Assembly: GCA_017437045.1 (NCBI GenBank)
Contig: JAFSBY010000043.1
Location: 1-64,000, forward strand
DNA length: 64,000 bases
Direction: 5' to 3'
Origin: Alistipes sp.
Lineage (GTDB): Bacteria; Bacteroidota; Bacteroidia; Bacteroidales; Rikenellaceae
Part shown: positions 20,335 through 28,529 of the stretch, one piece after another
Numbering within the stretch: position 1 is the stretch's first letter
How the letters are laid out: every line of letters starts with the position of its first letter
Program-made: the position numbers and the translations under genes
Notes under the pieces: generated by a model
Databases searched by the model: none
What the model saw: only the letters and a program-made list of their open reading frames with translations
Told to the model about the DNA's origin: nothing

Positions 20335-21537
20335 ATGGCAACATTAGAAGATTTCAGAATTGAGTACCAAGGTACTCTCGCGCAATTCAAAGCGTCAAAC
20401 TACCCGACGACTTACGCGGACAAGATCGTGCACATCACCGGCGACAGCGCGGGAAAGGATTCCGCGATTTTCGCCAACGGAAAGTATTACGCTGCAACTG
20501 ATGCAGCACTCGCTGCACTTAAGCTCTTCGACAAGGTGAGTGCCGGAGGACAGACCGCGCAAGCAGCGGCCGCAGGCAGCACTTTGGCTTTCGAGGATGG
20601 AGACAGCATCATCATCACGCTAACGTCTTCGGGTATTAAGTTCTCGCTATCCTCGACGTTCAAGGAGATTGTATCGCAACATACTACCCAATTAGAGGAA
20701 CTTTACGAACGAATGGATGCTGAAGAAAGTGCCACTGAGGGTTTCGCCGGCAACATTCAAGACTTAACACAAGACATTGTAGATCAGGAGAGCCGAATAA
20801 CAACCCTTGAGGGCAATGTCGGAGAAACAGATGACCTTAACACAACCAGCAAGAATACGGTAGGGGCTATCAACGAGGTGCTGGCAGCAGTCGGTACAGG
20901 TGGTACGAACGCCGTGGTAACGGTCGAGAAATCTACGGACGGCTTAACCTATACCATCAAGCAGGGAGGCGAACAGGTCGGCGTGATCAACATTCCCAAA
21001 GATATGGTCGTAACCTCCGGCGAGGTGGTAACAAATCCATCGGGCCAGGCCGCAGGTACGTACATTAAGCTGACGCTTGCTAACGTAACGCAACCTCTAT
21101 ACATCAATGTAGGTAAGCTGGTTGATATTTACACGGTTCAGTCGAATGCGGCGCAAATCCAATTAGCTATCGATGCAGCAACCCGTGTGATCAGCGCGAC
21201 GATTGTAAACGGAAGCGTTACCGCAGACAAGTTAGCCGCAGGCGCAGTGACTACTGCAAAAATATCCGACAATAATGTTACGCTGCCCAAGTTAGCGGTA
21301 GCTCTGCAGACGATCCTGAATGGTGCCATTCTGCCGACAAATGTATTTGTAGGATCGATGGGCAACACCTCCGACGATTATCTGAAGCGAACGACCGGGA
21401 CGAATACGGTTGCGATTGCAGCCAATGTGACCCGCGTAGCAAGCGATACGAAGGGCCTTGCGAACTCAAAGGACGTAAAGGAGTACGTCGATGGATGCTT
21501 CGAGACGGCGAAGACGTGGAAGATTCTAACAGCGTAG
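20335..21537 (+). CDS. Tail fibre protein A
   Basis: 400 residues. The N-terminal block FRIEYQGTLAQFKASNYP plus HITGDSAGKDSAIFANGKYY is shared with the next fibre gene. The middle has a coiled coil with repeated LTQDIVDQESRITTLEG and a NTVGAINEVLAAV motif known from fibre stalks. The C-terminus is beta-rich and glycine/alanine/threonine-rich (VTADKLAAGAVTTAKI). Predicted trimeric receptor-binding fibre. Confidence 0.78.
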   Translation: MATLEDFRIEYQGTLAQFKASNYPTTYADKIVHITGDSAGKDSAIFANGKYYAATDAALAALKLFDKVSAGGQTAQAAAAGSTLAFEDGDSIIITLTSSGIKFSLSSTFKEIVSQHTTQLEELYERMDAEESATEGFAGNIQDLTQDIVDQESRITTLEGNVGETDDLNTTSKNTVGAINEVLAAVGTGGTNAVVTVEKSTDGLTYTIKQGGEQVGVINIPKDMVVTSGEVVTNPSGQAAGTYIKLTLANVTQPLYINVGKLVDIYTVQSNAAQIQLAIDAATRVISATIVNGSVTADKLAAGAVTTAKISDNNVTLPKLAVALQTILNGAILPTNVFVGSMGNTSDDYLKRTTGTNTVAIAANVTRVASDTKGLANSKDVKEYVDGCFETAKTWKILTA

Positions 21538-21592: not shown

Positions 21593-22789
21593 ATGGCAGA
21601 CGAAAAAAACTTCAGGTTCACATATCAGGGTACAGTTGAGGCGTTTAAGGCGACAACTCTTCCGTCTAAATATGCAAACGAGGTGGTATATATCACCGGT
21701 GATGCCTCGGGCAACGGCCGTGCGATCTTTGCCAATGGGGAGTATTACGCCAATGCTGATTCTATGAGCGAACGCGGATGGCGTCCGATGCGCATGAACG
21801 GAAGCAACATCTATTGGAGTAAGATCGCTTCCGTGTCTAACGAAACCATCACATCGGGCGGCCGTGATGCTTGGATCGAGGTCGAGGTAAATGGCGATAC
21901 GAACTACCCGAATGCGTGTCGCTTCATTATCCAAATCACTCAATATCTAAATTCGGCTATCTCGGTGGCCGTGTTCGGTGGGGCTTCTCCTATTCCGAGG
22001 GCCGGCATGACAGGTCCGAAACCTTGTGTTACGGTAGATGCGAACCGTAACGTGTGGCTGAAGATTCTCAACGCACAGTGGGATATGTATGCGGCCATTC
22101 GCCCGCTCAAGCAAGATACTTTCGGTACGATCTCGATTCTCGGAAAGGCAGCTGATGATGGTAGCCATGCCTCGAACTTTGAAACGCAAATTGATGCTCC
22201 CTCCTCGACCTTCCTTGAGGGCTATGGTGGTCTGCGATACGCGATTTCGACCGGCACATACACGCTCACGGGTGCAGTCATCGACGCTACGGCTACCGAT
22301 GCCAAGAAGCTCGGAGGCGTAGATGCTTCGGAGTATGCGAAAACAGAAGAGATATCAGGGCGTAAATATATTTATGCGCAGGGCGGACTTACTGACGACC
22401 AACTTATATATGCGCTCCCTACAAGCAAAGACGGCACAGAAGATGACACTCTCGTGTCCGAAGGGACGTTGAAAACCATCAATGATGAATCGCTTGTCGG
22501 AACTGGTGATATCAAAGTAGCACCAGCCCCATATACGATTCGGACGCTCGCTATAACTGAATTAGCGGTTGGAGAATCCTTCGAGAATGAAATCGAGTAC
22601 ATCAAGCAGGCTATTACTTCAGGTACAGACATAGAGATTTATACGGGTAATGGATACGGGAAAGCGAAAGCTATATACCAGGAGTTGGATGATTATGTAT
22701 ATCTCTCATTCTGCCAAATGGCATCAGTGATTTACATGGAAATCAATATAGACACAGGAGAAATAGAGAGCCTCTCCCTCACCCAGTAA
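21593..22789 (+). CDS. Tail fibre protein B, paralogue of A at N-terminus
   Basis: 398 residues. Starts FRFTYQGTVEAFKATTLPSK and YITGDASGNGRAIFANGEYY, clearly homologous to fibre A over about 55 residues. After this the sequence differs completely: a carbohydrate-contact-like beta domain (EVNGDTNYPNACRFIIQITQ) and then DATATDAKKLGGVDASEYAK, a known phage fibre repeat unit. It is probably an alternative or additional receptor-binding protein docked by the same N-terminal adaptor. Confidence 0.75.
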   Translation: MADEKNFRFTYQGTVEAFKATTLPSKYANEVVYITGDASGNGRAIFANGEYYANADSMSERGWRPMRMNGSNIYWSKIASVSNETITSGGRDAWIEVEVNGDTNYPNACRFIIQITQYLNSAISVAVFGGASPIPRAGMTGPKPCVTVDANRNVWLKILNAQWDMYAAIRPLKQDTFGTISILGKAADDGSHASNFETQIDAPSSTFLEGYGGLRYAISTGTYTLTGAVIDATATDAKKLGGVDASEYAKTEEISGRKYIYAQGGLTDDQLIYALPTSKDGTEDDTLVSEGTLKTINDESLVGTGDIKVAPAPYTIRTLAITELAVGESFENEIEYIKQAITSGTDIEIYTGNGYGKAKAIYQELDDYVYLSFCQMASVIYMEINIDTGEIESLSLTQ

Positions 22790-24445: not shown

Positions 24446-24760
24446 ATGAAGATCATCTACAACAAGATTATCCCCTTCAATGGGTTCTCGGCTATCAACC
24501 TCTTTGGTGTATTATTTGCACGCAAGGAGTATGAGCCACTATCGGCTCGGACGATCCGTCATGAGGCCATACACACGGCACAGATGAAGGAGCTTGGCTA
24601 CATCGGCTTCTACATTATCTACCTGCTGGAGTGGCTGTATCGGCTCGTGACGACGAAGAATGCCTACCGCAGTATCAGCTTCGAGCGCGAGGCGTATGCG
24701 AACCAAGCAAATAAGAACTATCTAAAGACCCGCCGCGCATTTGCGCAATGGCGTAAATGA
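24446..24760 (+). CDS. Small membrane protein with HExxH motif
   Basis: 104 residues from ATG 24446; the open frame further upstream overlaps the previous gene. It contains RHEAIHTAQ, a perfect HExxH at residues 39-43, with hydrophobic segment GFYIIYLLEWLY and a later SFEREAYANQAN whose Glu could be the third zinc ligand. This looks like a minimal membrane-associated metallopeptidase. It sits in the lysis region; substrate unknown. Confidence 0.6.
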   Translation: MKIIYNKIIPFNGFSAINLFGVLFARKEYEPLSARTIRHEAIHTAQMKELGYIGFYIIYLLEWLYRLVTTKNAYRSISFEREAYANQANKNYLKTRRAFAQWRK

Positions 24761-25149: not shown

Positions 25150-25431
25150 ATGTATAATAAAGTATATAACGAGGTGCTCAACCTCGTAGCGGCCGAGACG
25201 GAGATTCCGGCCGAGATCATCACATCCAAATGTCGCCAGGCCGAAGTGGTCGATGCCCGCCAGCTTGTCGCCTGGTTCTGCTTCAAGCGAGGCCTATACC
25301 CGCGCACGATCGCGGAACTGCTCGGCATCAGCCGGCAGGCCGTATGCCAAAAGATTCAGACCATCGGCTATCGACGCGCCAACAGATCATTCGACTATAT
25401 CTATAAGAGGTGCGAAGAGAGACTGCGATAA
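25150..25431 (+). CDS. HTH protein similar to DnaA domain IV
   Basis: 93 residues, fully helical. EVVDARQLVAWFCFKRGLYP followed by TIAELLGISRQAVCQKI resembles the DNA-binding C-terminal domain of DnaA, with the ATPase domain absent. Stand-alone DnaA-C-like proteins occur in Bacteroidetes phages and could bind an origin or an operator. Its own start is preceded by an AT-rich stretch (25081-25149). Confidence 0.6.
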   Translation: MYNKVYNEVLNLVAAETEIPAEIITSKCRQAEVVDARQLVAWFCFKRGLYPRTIAELLGISRQAVCQKIQTIGYRRANRSFDYIYKRCEERLR

Positions 25432-25530: not shown

Positions 25531-25893
25531 ATGAAACAGGCCCAATTTGAAGGTACGCTTACCATGAAGGAGGGATCGGGCATAAGGGTGTCTTTAGCCG
25601 TCTTTCTGTATGAGGACGACGGAGTGTATTATGCGATGTGCCCGGCCCTTGACATCATAGGATATGGCAATAGCGAAGACGAAGCGAAAACATCTTTTGA
25701 GGTGATGATTGCTGAAGTAATAAAAGAGGTCGTCGAGAATGGTAATTTATTCGTGTGGCTACAGTCTTTGGGTTGGAGTAAGTGCCAGCCTCCTAAAACA
25801 ACGGAGCTCATCAATAAAGACGAAAGCCTCGCTACCATTGTGAATGAGAAATCGTATCGTACCATCCACAAAGATATTCTTCTTCCTTGCTAA
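25531..25893 (+). CDS. hicB: HicB-family antitoxin
   Basis: 120 residues. N-terminal partial RNase-H-like fold: AVFLYEDDGVYYAMCPALDI, then GYGNSEDEAKTSFEVMIAEV, the HicB pattern. The C-terminal part after residue 75 would carry the DNA-binding or toxin-contact region. HicB neutralises HicA and represses its operon. Gene order antitoxin-toxin is the reverse of the classic hicAB. The stop overlaps the toxin start as TAATG. Confidence 0.82.
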   Translation: MKQAQFEGTLTMKEGSGIRVSLAVFLYEDDGVYYAMCPALDIIGYGNSEDEAKTSFEVMIAEVIKEVVENGNLFVWLQSLGWSKCQPPKTTELINKDESLATIVNEKSYRTIHKDILLPC

Positions 25894-26123
25894 TGGGGCG
25901 TCTTTCCAATATCCCCTTGTCGGCTTTCCGATCCTTTTTGGCAAATGAAGGGCTAATGAATAAAGGCTGTAAGGGCGGACATGAAAAATGGTCCAAAGAA
26001 GGGCTACTGCGGCCAATAATCATCCAAACGCATATTAGCCCCATCCCGGAGCGTATAATAAAAAATAATCTTCGGGTGTTAGGGGTGTCAGAAGATAGGT
26101 TGCTCAAATACCTCGGACGATAA
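25893..26123 (+). CDS. hicA: HicA-family mRNA interferase toxin
   Basis: 76 residues from the ATG that overlaps the hicB stop. The dsRBD-like fold shows NKGCKGGHEKW with candidate catalytic His30, then RPIIIQTHISPIPERIIKNN and LRVLGVS. HicA cleaves mRNA when not bound by HicB. In a prophage it may stabilise the element or act in superinfection defence. A terminator follows. Confidence 0.85.
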   Translation: MGRLSNIPLSAFRSFLANEGLMNKGCKGGHEKWSKEGLLRPIIIQTHISPIPERIIKNNLRVLGVSEDRLLKYLGR

Positions 26124-26137
26124 ATTGATTTTTTAAG

Positions 26138-26170
26138 GCGGTAATTCCAAACGGAGTTACCGCTTTTTTT
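26138..26170 (+). terminator. Terminator after hicA
   Basis: Stem GCGGTAA / TTACCGC (26138-26144, 26157-26163) with a 12-base loop and a run of seven T (26164-26170). It isolates hicBA from the cassette that follows. Confidence 0.88.
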
Positions 26171-26175
26171 GTATC

Positions 26176-26263
26176 TGCAAGTAATTCGCAAGTAACCTGC
26201 AACTAACTGATTGCACCGGCCGTGCAACATCACCACCTTTGCAATGTCGGGGAATAGTCCCCG
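26176..26263 (+). promoter_or_regulatory. Promoter with three 11-bp-spaced iterons, palindrome and 5'-UTR hairpin
   Basis: Three direct repeats TGCAAGTAA, CGCAAGTAA and TGCAACTAA start at 26176, 26187 and 26198, exactly 11 bp apart. TTGCAC-CGGCC-GTGCAA (26211-26227) is an inverted repeat whose left arm supplies the TTG of a promoter; 20 bases on lies CACCTTTG (26234-26241), close to TAnnTTTG. The expected transcript then starts with a hairpin CGGGGA-ATAG-TCCCCG (26248-26263). One face of DNA would be decorated by a cooperative regulator upstream of the promoter. Confidence 0.7.
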
Positions 26264-26286
26264 GCAGAACCTTAAAACAAAAGTAT

Positions 26287-26766
26287 ATGGTAATCAAAGG
26301 AGCTGATGGTCACGATTACAGAGTAACTGGCCAGAATCAGGGTAATTTCAATACCGTAGGCGCAGCCGGTGGTATTGGATGGATTGCAGAGAAGGTGCTG
26401 GGTGGCAACCCTCTTGGCAACCTCTTCGGCACGAATTGTCGCGGTAGCATGGGGGACGACGCTCCCATTACGCGCTACGAGGCAAATCTGCTGATGCAGT
26501 TGCAGGCAAAGGATAGCCACATTGCGCTGCTCGAATCGAACATCTACACGGACAGCAAGATCGCTGATGTGTACGAGCGTCTGAATGCGAAGATCAACGG
26601 TAACAAGGATGCACAAGAGGCTATCAACCGAGAGCAGGCCGTTCTGAATGCAACCACCACGTCGGTGATCTCCTGCATGAAGGGTCAGATCGCACAGCTG
26701 ATGTCGCTGACCGACATGGTTGTTCCGCAGTCGAAGGTAGTAGATACGGGTTGCTGCAACTCGTAG
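26287..26766 (+). CDS. Unassigned cassette protein 1
   Basis: 159 residues from ATG 26287. The first half is glycine-rich (GNFNTVGAAGGIGWIAEKVL then GGNPLGNLFG), and the second half is a long helical segment (AKDSHIALLESNIYTDSKIA, then YERLNAKINGNKDAQEA) that looks like a multimerising coiled coil. It ends with a cysteine pair (DTGCCNS). I do not recognise a family. First gene after the elaborate promoter and therefore likely the leading product of the cassette. Confidence 0.65.
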   Translation: MVIKGADGHDYRVTGQNQGNFNTVGAAGGIGWIAEKVLGGNPLGNLFGTNCRGSMGDDAPITRYEANLLMQLQAKDSHIALLESNIYTDSKIADVYERLNAKINGNKDAQEAINREQAVLNATTTSVISCMKGQIAQLMSLTDMVVPQSKVVDTGCCNS

Positions 26767-26784
26767 CATTAAAGGTTGTAGTGT

Positions 26785-27243
26785 ATGGCAACGAACCGAC
26801 AAATATTGGCGGCTGTGCTCGTAAAATGGGCACAGCCTGCCATCGGGCAATTAGCCTCGGGGAAATTCGCGTCGCTCCCATTCTTTGAGGCAGCGAATAA
26901 CAAGGTGCGATCGTTGGGCTGGGTTAGCCCTTCGTGGAGCCTGGAAGCGGAGTTGATGCCTATGGCCGGAGGTCTTGTCAAGGCAGTCGCAGAACCAGCT
27001 ATCGCGTCGATGCTCGATAAAGTACCCGACGAGTTGATCCCGCAGATGGCGCATGGAATTGTTGATGCTGCGCTCGAAAAAGGATCGCTGACCCTATTAG
27101 AGGGACGCATTGAATTTGAAAAGGAAGACCTGGAGGAGTTGAAGCGTTACCTTAACTACAACCTTCCTGTTACCGCGAAAGAGAATTACACGGTTATCAC
27201 GGATAGCCCCGCACCTTCGGATGCCGGTGCGGTCGTTGAGTAG
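26785..27243 (+). CDS. Unassigned cassette protein 2
   Basis: 152 residues. Contains KWAQPAIGQLASGKFASLPF near the N-terminus, an alanine-rich central part (GLVKAVAEPAIASMLDKVP) and a charged helix DLEELKRYLNYNLPV before a disordered tail. No catalytic motif is seen. Spaced 18 bases from gene 1. Confidence 0.6.
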   Translation: MATNRQILAAVLVKWAQPAIGQLASGKFASLPFFEAANNKVRSLGWVSPSWSLEAELMPMAGGLVKAVAEPAIASMLDKVPDELIPQMAHGIVDAALEKGSLTLLEGRIEFEKEDLEELKRYLNYNLPVTAKENYTVITDSPAPSDAGAVVE

Positions 27244-27270
27244 GTGTCCACAAAAAAAACAGAAAACAAA

Positions 27271-27681
27271 ATGAGAACTTCAGCAATTATTACGCCCGTG
27301 TTGGCAGCAGGTTCGGCTGCATCACCGTACTTCGTTCAGCTCAATGTATTACAGGAGCTTTGCCATAAGGCGTGCAAGGACAACACCCCGGTATTCGTGC
27401 CGGCTATATCGTACGTAAGCCTTTCAGAGGTAGCAACGGGTCAGTATGTAGCAACCTTCCATATCGAAGGCGTGATTTCCTACCTGCCGTGCAATGGAGG
27501 TTGCAACAGCAAAACGATGAATATCTCGCAGGACTTCACGATTCCGATTGCCTCGGCGACGGCGCCGACCTCGGTGACTGTGACCTCGGGAGTGGCCGTG
27601 AATACCCTCATTGCCCCTCCGTGCAAGAACTGCACGCGCGAGTTTGTGAGCGAAATCCCGCTGACGATCACCGTATCGTAG
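27271..27681 (+). CDS. Unassigned cassette protein 3 with three cysteine pairs
   Basis: 136 residues from ATG 27271; an in-frame GTG at 27244 would add nine. Beta-rich after a short hydrophobic N-terminus. Cysteines come in three pairs: Cys31/35 (CHKAC), Cys74/78 (CNGGC) and Cys118/121 (CKNC), suggesting bound metal or disulfides. The C-terminal half has alternating hydrophobic beta strands (SEIPLTITVS). Function unknown; could be a structural or adhesion component. Confidence 0.6.
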   Translation: MRTSAIITPVLAAGSAASPYFVQLNVLQELCHKACKDNTPVFVPAISYVSLSEVATGQYVATFHIEGVISYLPCNGGCNSKTMNISQDFTIPIASATAPTSVTVTSGVAVNTLIAPPCKNCTREFVSEIPLTITVS

Positions 27682-27688
27682 CGTAATG

Positions 27689-27761
27689 GCGGCGGGACAG
27701 CGCATTGGGATTGATTTCTCCGATGCCCTCCCGCCGCTTAACTATTGACAAAAATTGTCAA
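27689..27761 (+). promoter_or_regulatory. Long hairpin and 17-bp inverted repeat
   Basis: Arms GCGGCGGGA (27689-27697) and TCCCGCCGC (27729-27737) pair perfectly over 9 bp around a 31-base interior. No T run follows on the + strand, so it is not a clear terminator. Just after it lies TTGACAA-AAA-TTGTCAA (27745-27761), a perfect inverted repeat ending 3 bases before the 27-residue ORF. Possible RNA processing site, operator or translational control. Confidence 0.55.
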
Positions 27762-27764
27762 ATC

Positions 27765-27848
27765 ATGGCAAAGAAAAAAGAGATTCAATCGGCACCAAAA
27801 CCGCTGCCATTGAAGAAGTATCAACCTCTCCCAAAGTTCGGGAGGTAA
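27765..27848 (+). CDS. 27-residue basic peptide
   Basis: ATG 27765 opens a 27-codon frame starting MAKKKEIQSAPKPLPLKK and ending LPKFGR. It is strongly basic and proline-rich. It ends 12 bases before gene 5 of the cassette. It may encode a small nucleic-acid- or protein-binding peptide, or be a leader. Confidence 0.45.
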   Translation: MAKKKEIQSAPKPLPLKKYQPLPKFGR

Positions 27849-27860
27849 AAAAAAGTTTAT

Positions 27861-28373
27861 ATGGGAATGAGTTATAAGGAGATGGTGAAATCGAACGCCT
27901 CGAAATTCAAAGGGAGCGAGGAAACAATGTGGGCTTCTATCGCATTAGTCTCGGAGCTGCTTGATGAGATGGTCGATAAACACCCGGACCTAAAAGATCG
28001 TTATTGGGCTTTCATGCGCGATCAGCACGAAGCAATGGCAGGCCACCACTTCAATGAGGCTTACGCCAAATGGCAGGTTTCACAGATGCACCACAAGGGA
28101 TCGGATGGAGTGGAATACAAGGGTGAACATTGGCCCGTTGAGGCAACGAATAGCGTTCGGGCTAAATACCCGAATAAAATTCCGAGCGAGTACAACGAGT
28201 GGGATGTTTACGTAGCCCTAAACGCCAGCTATCACGATTTCTGCGCATGGGCAAAGAAGAAGTTTTCTGATCAAGCGGAGGCGGAGATCATCGAGCTGGC
28301 TCTTGCATTCTGGTTCCTCGATGAGGACTGGGAGGGCAATACGAAGGTCTGGGATTATTTTCGCAAGCAATAA
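27861..28373 (+). CDS. Unassigned cassette protein 5
   Basis: 170 residues, helical, tryptophan- and aspartate-rich. Motifs ETMWASIALVSELLDEMV, then MRDQHEAMAGHHFNEAYA and NEWDVYVALNASYHDFCAW are reminiscent of a widespread phage protein family of unknown function seen in gut phages. Histidines in HHFNEAY and MHHKG could bind metal. Last gene of the prophage before the terminator and tRNA-Leu. Confidence 0.65.
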   Translation: MGMSYKEMVKSNASKFKGSEETMWASIALVSELLDEMVDKHPDLKDRYWAFMRDQHEAMAGHHFNEAYAKWQVSQMHHKGSDGVEYKGEHWPVEATNSVRAKYPNKIPSEYNEWDVYVALNASYHDFCAWAKKKFSDQAEAEIIELALAFWFLDEDWEGNTKVWDYFRKQ

Positions 28374-28407
28374 TCAAATCGTGCAAACGTTGTGCAAGTC
28401 TTATAAC

Positions 28408-28441
28408 AAACCGCGTTAGAGTTGCTCCTAACGCGGTTTTT
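28408..28441. terminator. Bidirectional terminator at prophage end
   Basis: A 12-bp perfect stem AAACCGCGTTAG / CTAACGCGGTTT (28408-28419, 28428-28439) with T residues on the + strand side. It separates the rightward phage cassette from the leftward tRNA. Confidence 0.88.
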
Positions 28442-28529
28442 GGTACTCGGAACGGGAATCGAACCCGTACGGCCATTACTGGCCACAGGATTTTAAGTCC
28501 GGCGTGTCTACCTATTCCACCATCCGAGC
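28441..28529 (-). tRNA. tRNA-Leu (anticodon UAA), with encoded CCA
   Basis: On the minus strand the sequence starts GCTCGGATGGTGGAATAGGT, shows the D-loop and the anticodon loop CUUAAAA with anticodon UAA. It has a long variable arm (GGCCAGTAATGGCC), the T-loop GGTTCGATTCC, and ends CCGAGTACCA. Acceptor stem pairs GCTCGGA with TCCGAGT apart from a G-U pair. The long variable arm and UAA anticodon define leucine. The 3' end faces the prophage, a classic integration site. Confidence 0.95.

Follow-up and report, generated by a model that had tools for sequence, protein, structure and literature searches.

The data presented here indicate that five rightward open reading frames (ORFs), termed g1 to g5, which fill positions 26,287 to 28,373 of a 64,000-nucleotide stretch of Alistipes sp. 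DNA (Bacteroidota, Rikenellaceae; assembly GCA_017437045.1, contig JAFSBY010000043.1, positions 1 to 64,000; hereafter the window), are a version of a widespread exchangeable phage cassette and are not peculiar to the one prophage at whose end they lie. In this recurring set a g1-type protein comes first, a protein of the DUF7841 family (g5 in the window) comes last in most versions, and other small proteins stand between them; we are highly confident of this account of cassette anatomy and exchange. An original prediction, made from the sequence alone, had described five rightward genes forming one unit, and all five ORFs are present at the positions it gave. Its view that they belong together is borne out by the same gene order in other loci, phages among them, and because homologues of g1, g2, g3 and g5 occur elsewhere in that order, these four can be taken as real genes, while g4 is less sure. 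We found no paper describing such a swapped late cassette, nor any on DUF7841, KP06_gp58-62 or the Bacteroides phage BF1-TP2.

Relatives were gathered by overlapping scans of IMG/VR, in which g3 gave 4 loci, the DUF7841 profile 36 and a g3 profile 6, and by a search with the DUF7841 protein of a fecal contig, which gave 25 further loci (loci are cited by our L numbers where they must be told apart). In host genomes, the g3 profile found one locus among 84,980 species represented by one genome each, DUF7841 occurred in 2 of 395 genomes of the phylum (the window's own and one match below the cut-off) and in none of 14 controls, and g1 and g2 were found solely in the window's own genome among 200 genomes of the family and 393 of the order, respectively. 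Iterative hidden Markov models (HMMs), run over the ORFs of 70 loci with near-identical loci left out, recovered 31 g1-type ORFs (including Crassvirales), 5 of g2 (the window, L022, L024, L029 and DAC19), 9 of g3 and 68 of DUF7841; an earlier run, which started from the L029 protein and counted near-identical loci, gave 14 g3 ORFs. The g3 proteins of L022 and L024 were members in the first run and dropped out in the later one, that of L022 is 25% identical to g3 of the window, and the profile A5 itself contains L022 and L029, both of which it then scores. A g1-type gene lies upstream in 52 of the 68 DUF7841 loci; as many as eight of these 52 belong to version C and were entered manually, and a contig end truncates 2 or more of the 16 loci that lack such a gene. 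After DUF7841, no recognised cassette gene follows among up to four listed genes in 57/57 ordered loci, a set chosen by DUF7841, from which 3 of 60 representatives were skipped and in which some loci hold no other recognised cassette gene. In crAss002, similarity to DUF7841 covers query residues 107-169 only and falls where no gene is annotated (L057:8001-8180), as a fragment or an interrupted gene would.

Four versions, labelled A to D by us, may be set apart. Version A comprises g1, g2, g3 and DUF7841 (the window, L022, L024 and L029), and version B a long g1, a coiled-coil protein, a g2-like protein and DUF7841, carried by BF1-TP2, several Bacteroides prophages and crAss-like phages including p-crAssphage (gp61-gp58). 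Version C combines a different glycine-rich protein of membrane-like character with small proteins, g3, a hydrophobic protein, sometimes a basic peptide, and DUF7841 (L003, L004, L006, L015, L025, L033, L053 and L055). Version D has a g1 rich in Trp and Gly together with additional small proteins; a distant DUF7841 protein is present in L094 and C3_41T2LP and not in cr116, which has a g3 relative (39.7 bits). Still other versions include BclA_C-like proteins; their loci are taken for those of Bacillota phages, a host that we presume from gene content. The window mixes B-like genes (g1 and g5) with a C-like g3 and perhaps a C-like g4: by eye, the C-terminus of g4 resembles the small basic peptide that precedes DUF7841 in L003 and L055 (YxPxPKF), and an HMM of that peptide family gave no match to g4. 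The Trp/Gly-rich g1 of L094, a Bacteroides-type prophage, matches an HMM built from probable Bacillota phages (L094:8172-9146; 6.5e-18), which hints that cassettes may have been transferred across phyla.

That such versions replace one another is evident from related Bacteroides prophages compared by blastn (matches >60 bp). Between L018 (version B) and L022 (A), identity is 100% and 90% in two upstream stretches that flank unmatched accessory genes, 81% over the promoter and 99% over 5.9 kb from the start codon of g5, and g1 to g3 do not match at all. Likewise, L024 (A) and L016 (B) are 97% identical until about 11 bp before g1, unmatched until g5 and 85% identical over the following 0.6 kb or so, and L016 (B) and L094 (D) are 87% identical over the repeats described below, unmatched across the whole cassette and 96% identical downstream. 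As the DNA matches break off across the block and resume at g5, g1 to g3 behave as one exchangeable unit. In the Steigviridae, cr106 (B) and cr116 (D) carry different cassettes in the same slot ahead of the capsid genes; of the downstream genes, one encodes a protein of about 380 residues (50% identical), which we label scaffold-like by its position between cassette and capsid gene, and the other is the capsid gene (75% over 346 residues). In PhiCrAss001 the counterparts of these two genes are 72% and 90% identical to the cr106 ones, only 235 bp separate gp30 from gp31, and the phage does not appear in the set of 33 phage records that bear DUF7841. The cassette is thus dispensable at least in the Steigviridae, and its role is testable, since one phage lacks it and two others carry different versions. 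The empty slot of PhiCrAss001 (L010) holds a tiny basic ORF, and similar small basic peptides lie near the cassettes of L025 and L038.

Expression of the cassette appears to be governed by a promoter of its own, as had been predicted; the prediction of a dedicated, regulated promoter is supported by tandem 11-bp repeats, a palindrome and a -7 element (Table 1), the last assigned on the Bacteroides consensus, which we take to be TANNTTTG. The score of the repeats at a lag of 11 was reached by 0 of 500 dinucleotide shuffles, other lags from 7 to 15 scored at most 11, and the repeats end 28 bp upstream of the TTTG core. The helix-turn-helix (HTH) gene upstream matches Bac_DnaA_C with E 9.6e-07 (29.2 bits, slightly below the cut-off of 31.5), and its family has 20 ORFs in cassette loci by iterative HMM; the HTH gene of L106 was assigned from its annotation and not by HMM. 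TTTG stands at -45 to -50 in 15 of 20 HTH-bearing loci. In a hand-picked set of 24 loci, repeats (shuffle p<0.05) were present in 12 of 15 with an upstream HTH gene versus 1 of 9 without (Fisher p 0.0017), and in 7 of 10 versus 1 of 9 once near-identical loci were collapsed (p 0.015). In a later set, a lag-11 score of at least 17 was found in 13/20 HTH-bearing loci versus 4/1495 control windows taken from those loci. These 13 loci hold about five distinct repeat blocks (that of the window, that of L022, one common to seven loci, one in L003/L055 and one in L034/L104), which makes for a small effective number. Since in L094 a different cassette follows the same repeats and an HTH gene of the same family, the switch belongs to the slot and not to the cassette. 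We infer that the HTH protein binds the 11-bp repeats, and propose the combination of HTH gene and repeat-bearing promoter as a candidate regulatory circuit of Bacteroidales phages. By eye, a leader hairpin can be seen downstream of the -7 element both in the window and in several Bacteroides loci. Between the HTH gene and the cassette, upstream of the same repeats, lies an accessory hotspot, which among L018, L021 and L007 versus L016 and L024 holds either an ATP-binding/DUF4325 pair (annotated in L007) or a HicA/HicB-like pair (by eye).

The encoded proteins are largely outside known families. The prediction that the genes match no known module holds for the PHROGs, which list no family for g1 to g5, and fails for g5, the sole one of the five with a Pfam match above cut-off (DUF7841, PF25223; 101.9 bits, E 3.3e-29, cut-off 25.2); NCBIfam gave no family for g1, g2, g3 and g5 (g4 was not in that scan), these three libraries being the ones scanned and PADLOC not among them. 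The AlphaFold2 model of g5 is mainly helical (pLDDT 92.8, pTM 0.82, 31 sequences). Foldseek against the PDB returned 69 matches at E<=10 and none at E<=0.001, and 9jlf_B, a phage head-to-tail interface chain, was rejected as a source of the fold, the top probability among the 50 matches listed being only 0.13 (TM 0.26). In BFVD, 10 matches reached E<=0.001, 9 of them named DUF7841, the best (TM 0.83) being a crAssphage DUF7841 protein; judged by the model, DUF7841 appears to have a fold of which no relative has been solved. The protein g3 has the six cysteines and predicted all-beta fold that had been foreseen (eight strands, pLDDT 87.3, pTM 0.81, 10 sequences; the other four models reached 71.0-78.5), and a sequence search of the PDB gave no significant match to the g3 or g5 profiles. 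In the g1 proteins the N-terminal region is either glycine-rich or hydrophobic, a coiled coil can be discerned by eye and the end is usually Cys-rich, features that together suggest a stalk or a membrane-anchored protein. A homology of g2 to the g2-like protein of the L080 type was considered and dropped, no similarity being detected.

A location in the late region is supported, less firmly than exchange, by the neighbours of the cassette. Where flanks can be read they are often late genes: annotated capsid genes adjoin the cassette in cr106 and cr116, version C starts 2.3 kb after a gp23-type capsid gene in L053, and lysis-type or tail-type genes lie beside it in others; gene size and order place it in a late region in L036, L038, L039, L040, L072 and L080. 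In the window, genes resembling tail, fibre and lysis genes, judged by eye from the ORFs, lie upstream. Depositors have named g1 'putative tail protein', 'spike protein/glycoprotein' or 'outer capsid protein/viral fiber', and no cassette protein is known as a virion protein in the searches made, so that the cassette does not reduce to known virion proteins always linked to a late operon.

These observations allow the construction of a model, preferred tentatively and with slightly less than even confidence, in which the cassette is an exchangeable, dispensable late accessory assembly, most likely an optional surface appendage of the particle or, less likely, of the infected-cell envelope. This model is favoured by the late flanks, by the stalk-like features of g1 and by g3 or another small beta-looking protein as its frequent partner. 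It proposes that the HTH protein would bind the repeats and activate the cassette late in infection, whereupon g1 may assemble into an oligomeric coiled-coil stalk, anchored by its glycine-rich or hydrophobic N-terminus and Cys-rich at the tip, a stalk that the all-beta g3 could decorate or cap. The proteins g2 and g5 may serve as adaptors or assembly factors, and the outward parts would be exchanged from phage to phage, with DUF7841 retaining a more general function. A wider version of the proposal is possible, and we hold it more loosely: that the cassette is a hitherto unrecognised phage machine found in phages that differ in tail and capsid type, in Bacteroidota and probably also in Bacillota, with a DnaA-C-like HTH activator acting on 11-bp iterons, a block-swapped surface complex in an 'allelic slot' and DUF7841 as its usual adaptor. 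The small structural assembly of the original prediction is accordingly the best of its three guesses, and it is unproven.

Several observations weigh against this model in one or another of its parts. With respect to the switch, L029 has the cassette with neither an HTH match nor repeats, the HTH-bearing L014, L028, L053, L105 and L106 have no clear repeats, HTH-bearing L004 has weak ones only (14/24, p 0.024), L105 has no recognised cassette gene, and L009 has repeats (p 0.01) without an HTH match. With respect to composition, the cassette of cr116 lacks DUF7841 and DAC19 has g1 and g2 genes with no recognised DUF7841 (L058:9839-11586). Of 130 flanking proteins scanned against the PHROGs, 6 match one major head family. 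This count lends a late location weak support, because the listed endolysin and amidase families comprise just two to four members apiece, probably a handful of recurring proteins, and because the list was partly hand-chosen, with 11 of its 130 entries added manually. No virion proteome naming cassette proteins was found in the literature searched. Virion genes seldom have a promoter of their own, and the cassette is not needed for the particle, as PhiCrAss001 does without it and its solved head fibre gp29 is of another family. The reading of g3 as BclA_C-like gained no support from profile comparison (no Pfam match; hhalign probability 0.1 to the BclA_C-like family), and the hydrophobic stretches of g1 in other versions suit a membrane protein better than a capsid fibre. 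In DAC19, the g1 and g2 genes are followed by a 159-residue protein of unassigned family and then by a long gene.

The hydrophobic stretches of g1 lead to the main rival, doubtful but stronger than the others, in which the cassette builds a complex in the envelope of the cell during infection or lysogeny, where a membrane-bound g1 displays or holds the beta protein and alters the surface or aids lysis, for example to exclude competing phages. The highest 19-residue hydropathy of g1 in other versions ranges from 1.25 to 2.28 and exceeds 1.6 in 5 of 16 g1 proteins, a hydrophobic protein of about 95 residues with a CxxC motif occurs in cassettes of the L003/L004 type, lysis-type neighbours are found at several loci, and block swapping is as expected of exclusion specificities. 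However, g1 of the window has no clear transmembrane helix (0.94). It is distinctly unlikely that the cassette instead serves lysogenic conversion or defence and is expressed from the prophage, as the original prediction had entertained, although its position at the prophage end, its own promoter and terminators, and the accessory genes that relatives hold between HTH gene and cassette agree with this. A role in lysogeny alone fits less well, since versions are carried by a phage with a gp23-type capsid gene and by crAss-like phages, among which PhiCrAss002 is reported to have yielded no lysogeny genes. The point is not decisive, as p-crAssphage is described as possibly replicating in a non-lytic, P1-like mode. 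Very unlikely is a set of internal ejection (pilot) proteins that help DNA through the envelope, to which the glycine-rich helices, the small helical partners and the proximity to capsid genes in the Steigviridae would be suited; PhiCrAss001, however, has other cargo proteins and no cassette, and pilot proteins do not typically include small beta proteins. The satellite or packaging unit that had also been proposed is scarcely credible, for although the cassette is self-contained and bounded by terminators, g1 to g5 have no integrase, primase, terminase, packaging or capsid-remodelling match and versions sit within complete phage genomes. As background, mass spectrometry of a lysate of hankyphage, a phage not known to carry the cassette, has been reported (PMC12135933), and further papers are cited here (PMC10172136, PMC6235969, PMC8042965, PMC10136315 and PMC12118408).

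The predicted boundaries of the cassette were confirmed in part. Of two strong terminators claimed, the left one was called as an intrinsic terminator, although the scan found 4 terminators versus 7.3 in shuffles, i.e., fewer than by chance; the right is a perfect inverted repeat and a candidate terminator only. Terminator-like hairpins (by eye) precede the cassette also in L016, L018, L021, L023, L024, L009 and L039. The toxin-antitoxin pair said to lie upstream was not recovered, as 25531-25890 and 25899-26120 have no Pfam match and the HicB-like PHROG match has E 0.3. An attachment site at the tRNA-Leu gene is likely but unproven: the gene is present, but its 3' end occurs once in this genome assembly and a second copy was not found. 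Neither the left attachment site nor a prophage integrase was found in this assembly; the contig begins within the prophage, so its left end is unseen. An integrase on contig C17 was rejected as that of the prophage, since it sits among host-type genes (by eye). Elsewhere in the prophage, positions 1-800 encode a repeat-rich protein with SFPEGMTIGG units, and tandem fibre-like proteins with similar N-termini (20335-21537 and 21593-22789) are a probable duplication.

Table 1. Features of the cassette and its surroundings in the window
Feature	Position	Strand	Details
DnaA_C-like HTH gene, candidate cassette-promoter regulator	25150-25431	+	93 aa
Intrinsic terminator dividing cassette from upstream genes	26135-26166	+	14-pair stem and T-run
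Three tandem 11-bp direct repeats, candidate operator	26177-26209	+	18/24 lag-11 matches
Palindrome between repeats and -7 element	26211-26227		6-bp arms; read from sequence
Bacteroides-type -7 element CACCTTTG	26234-26241	+	TTTG core 26238-26241, 49 bp before g1 start
g1	26287-26766	+	159 aa; glycine-rich N-terminus, coiled coil (by eye), Cys-containing tail; iterative HMM family
g2	26785-27243	+	152 aa; HMM family of 5
g3	27271-27681	+	136 aa; 6 Cys; predicted all-beta
g4	27765-27848	+	27-residue basic peptide
g5	27861-28373	+	170 aa; DUF7841 (PF25223); helical fold (model)
Perfect 12-bp inverted repeat, candidate right-end terminator	28408-28439		not called by terminator scanner
tRNA-Leu (taa), probable attachment target	28441-28529	-	3' end faces prophage

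Among known systems, phage morons resemble the cassette in having their own promoter and terminators (here by sequence), in being dispensable and in patchy presence, including absence from some relatives, as in PhiCrAss001 with its empty slot beside cr106 and cr116 with different cassettes. Unlike morons, the cassette is multi-gene, lies near late genes where flanks are readable and has alternative versions at one slot. The PhiCrAss001 head fibre gp29 is likewise a small protein with a beta domain whose gene lies near capsid genes; it matches Head_fiber_dimeric (PF25641) at E 3.6e-33, whereas g1 to g5 give no match to that family at E<=1, and PhiCrAss001 has no cassette. A kinship of g3 with gp29 was considered and found no support in profile comparison. 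BclA_C/C1q-like beta proteins offer a further parallel, as in some versions a small protein beside DUF7841 resembles BclA_C (best 5.7e-07, below the family cut-off), whereas g3 of the window has no such match. Close in arrangement are the Bacteroides prophages L022 and L024 (IMG/VR), which share with the window the order g1-g2-g3-DUF7841, the HTH gene and the 11-bp repeats, but in which no g4 was recognised. Finally, KP06_gp61-gp58 of p-crAssphage (Carjivirus communis) follow the order of the window, with gp61 of the g1 family, gp59 g2-like and gp58 a DUF7841 protein, although gp60, from a coiled-coil family of its own, has no counterpart in the window, there is no g3, and the likeness of the gp59 type to g2 of the window is marginal (hhalign probability 51 over 30 columns). 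A small zincin-like protein of the window with an HEAIH motif (24446-24760) is 48.6% identical to the zincin gp56 near the p-crAssphage cassette and 44.7% identical to a cr3_1 protein near the cassette of that phage. The four unexplained genes gp58-gp61 of p-crAssphage thereby gain a context, as one version of a swappable module found in quite different gut phages.

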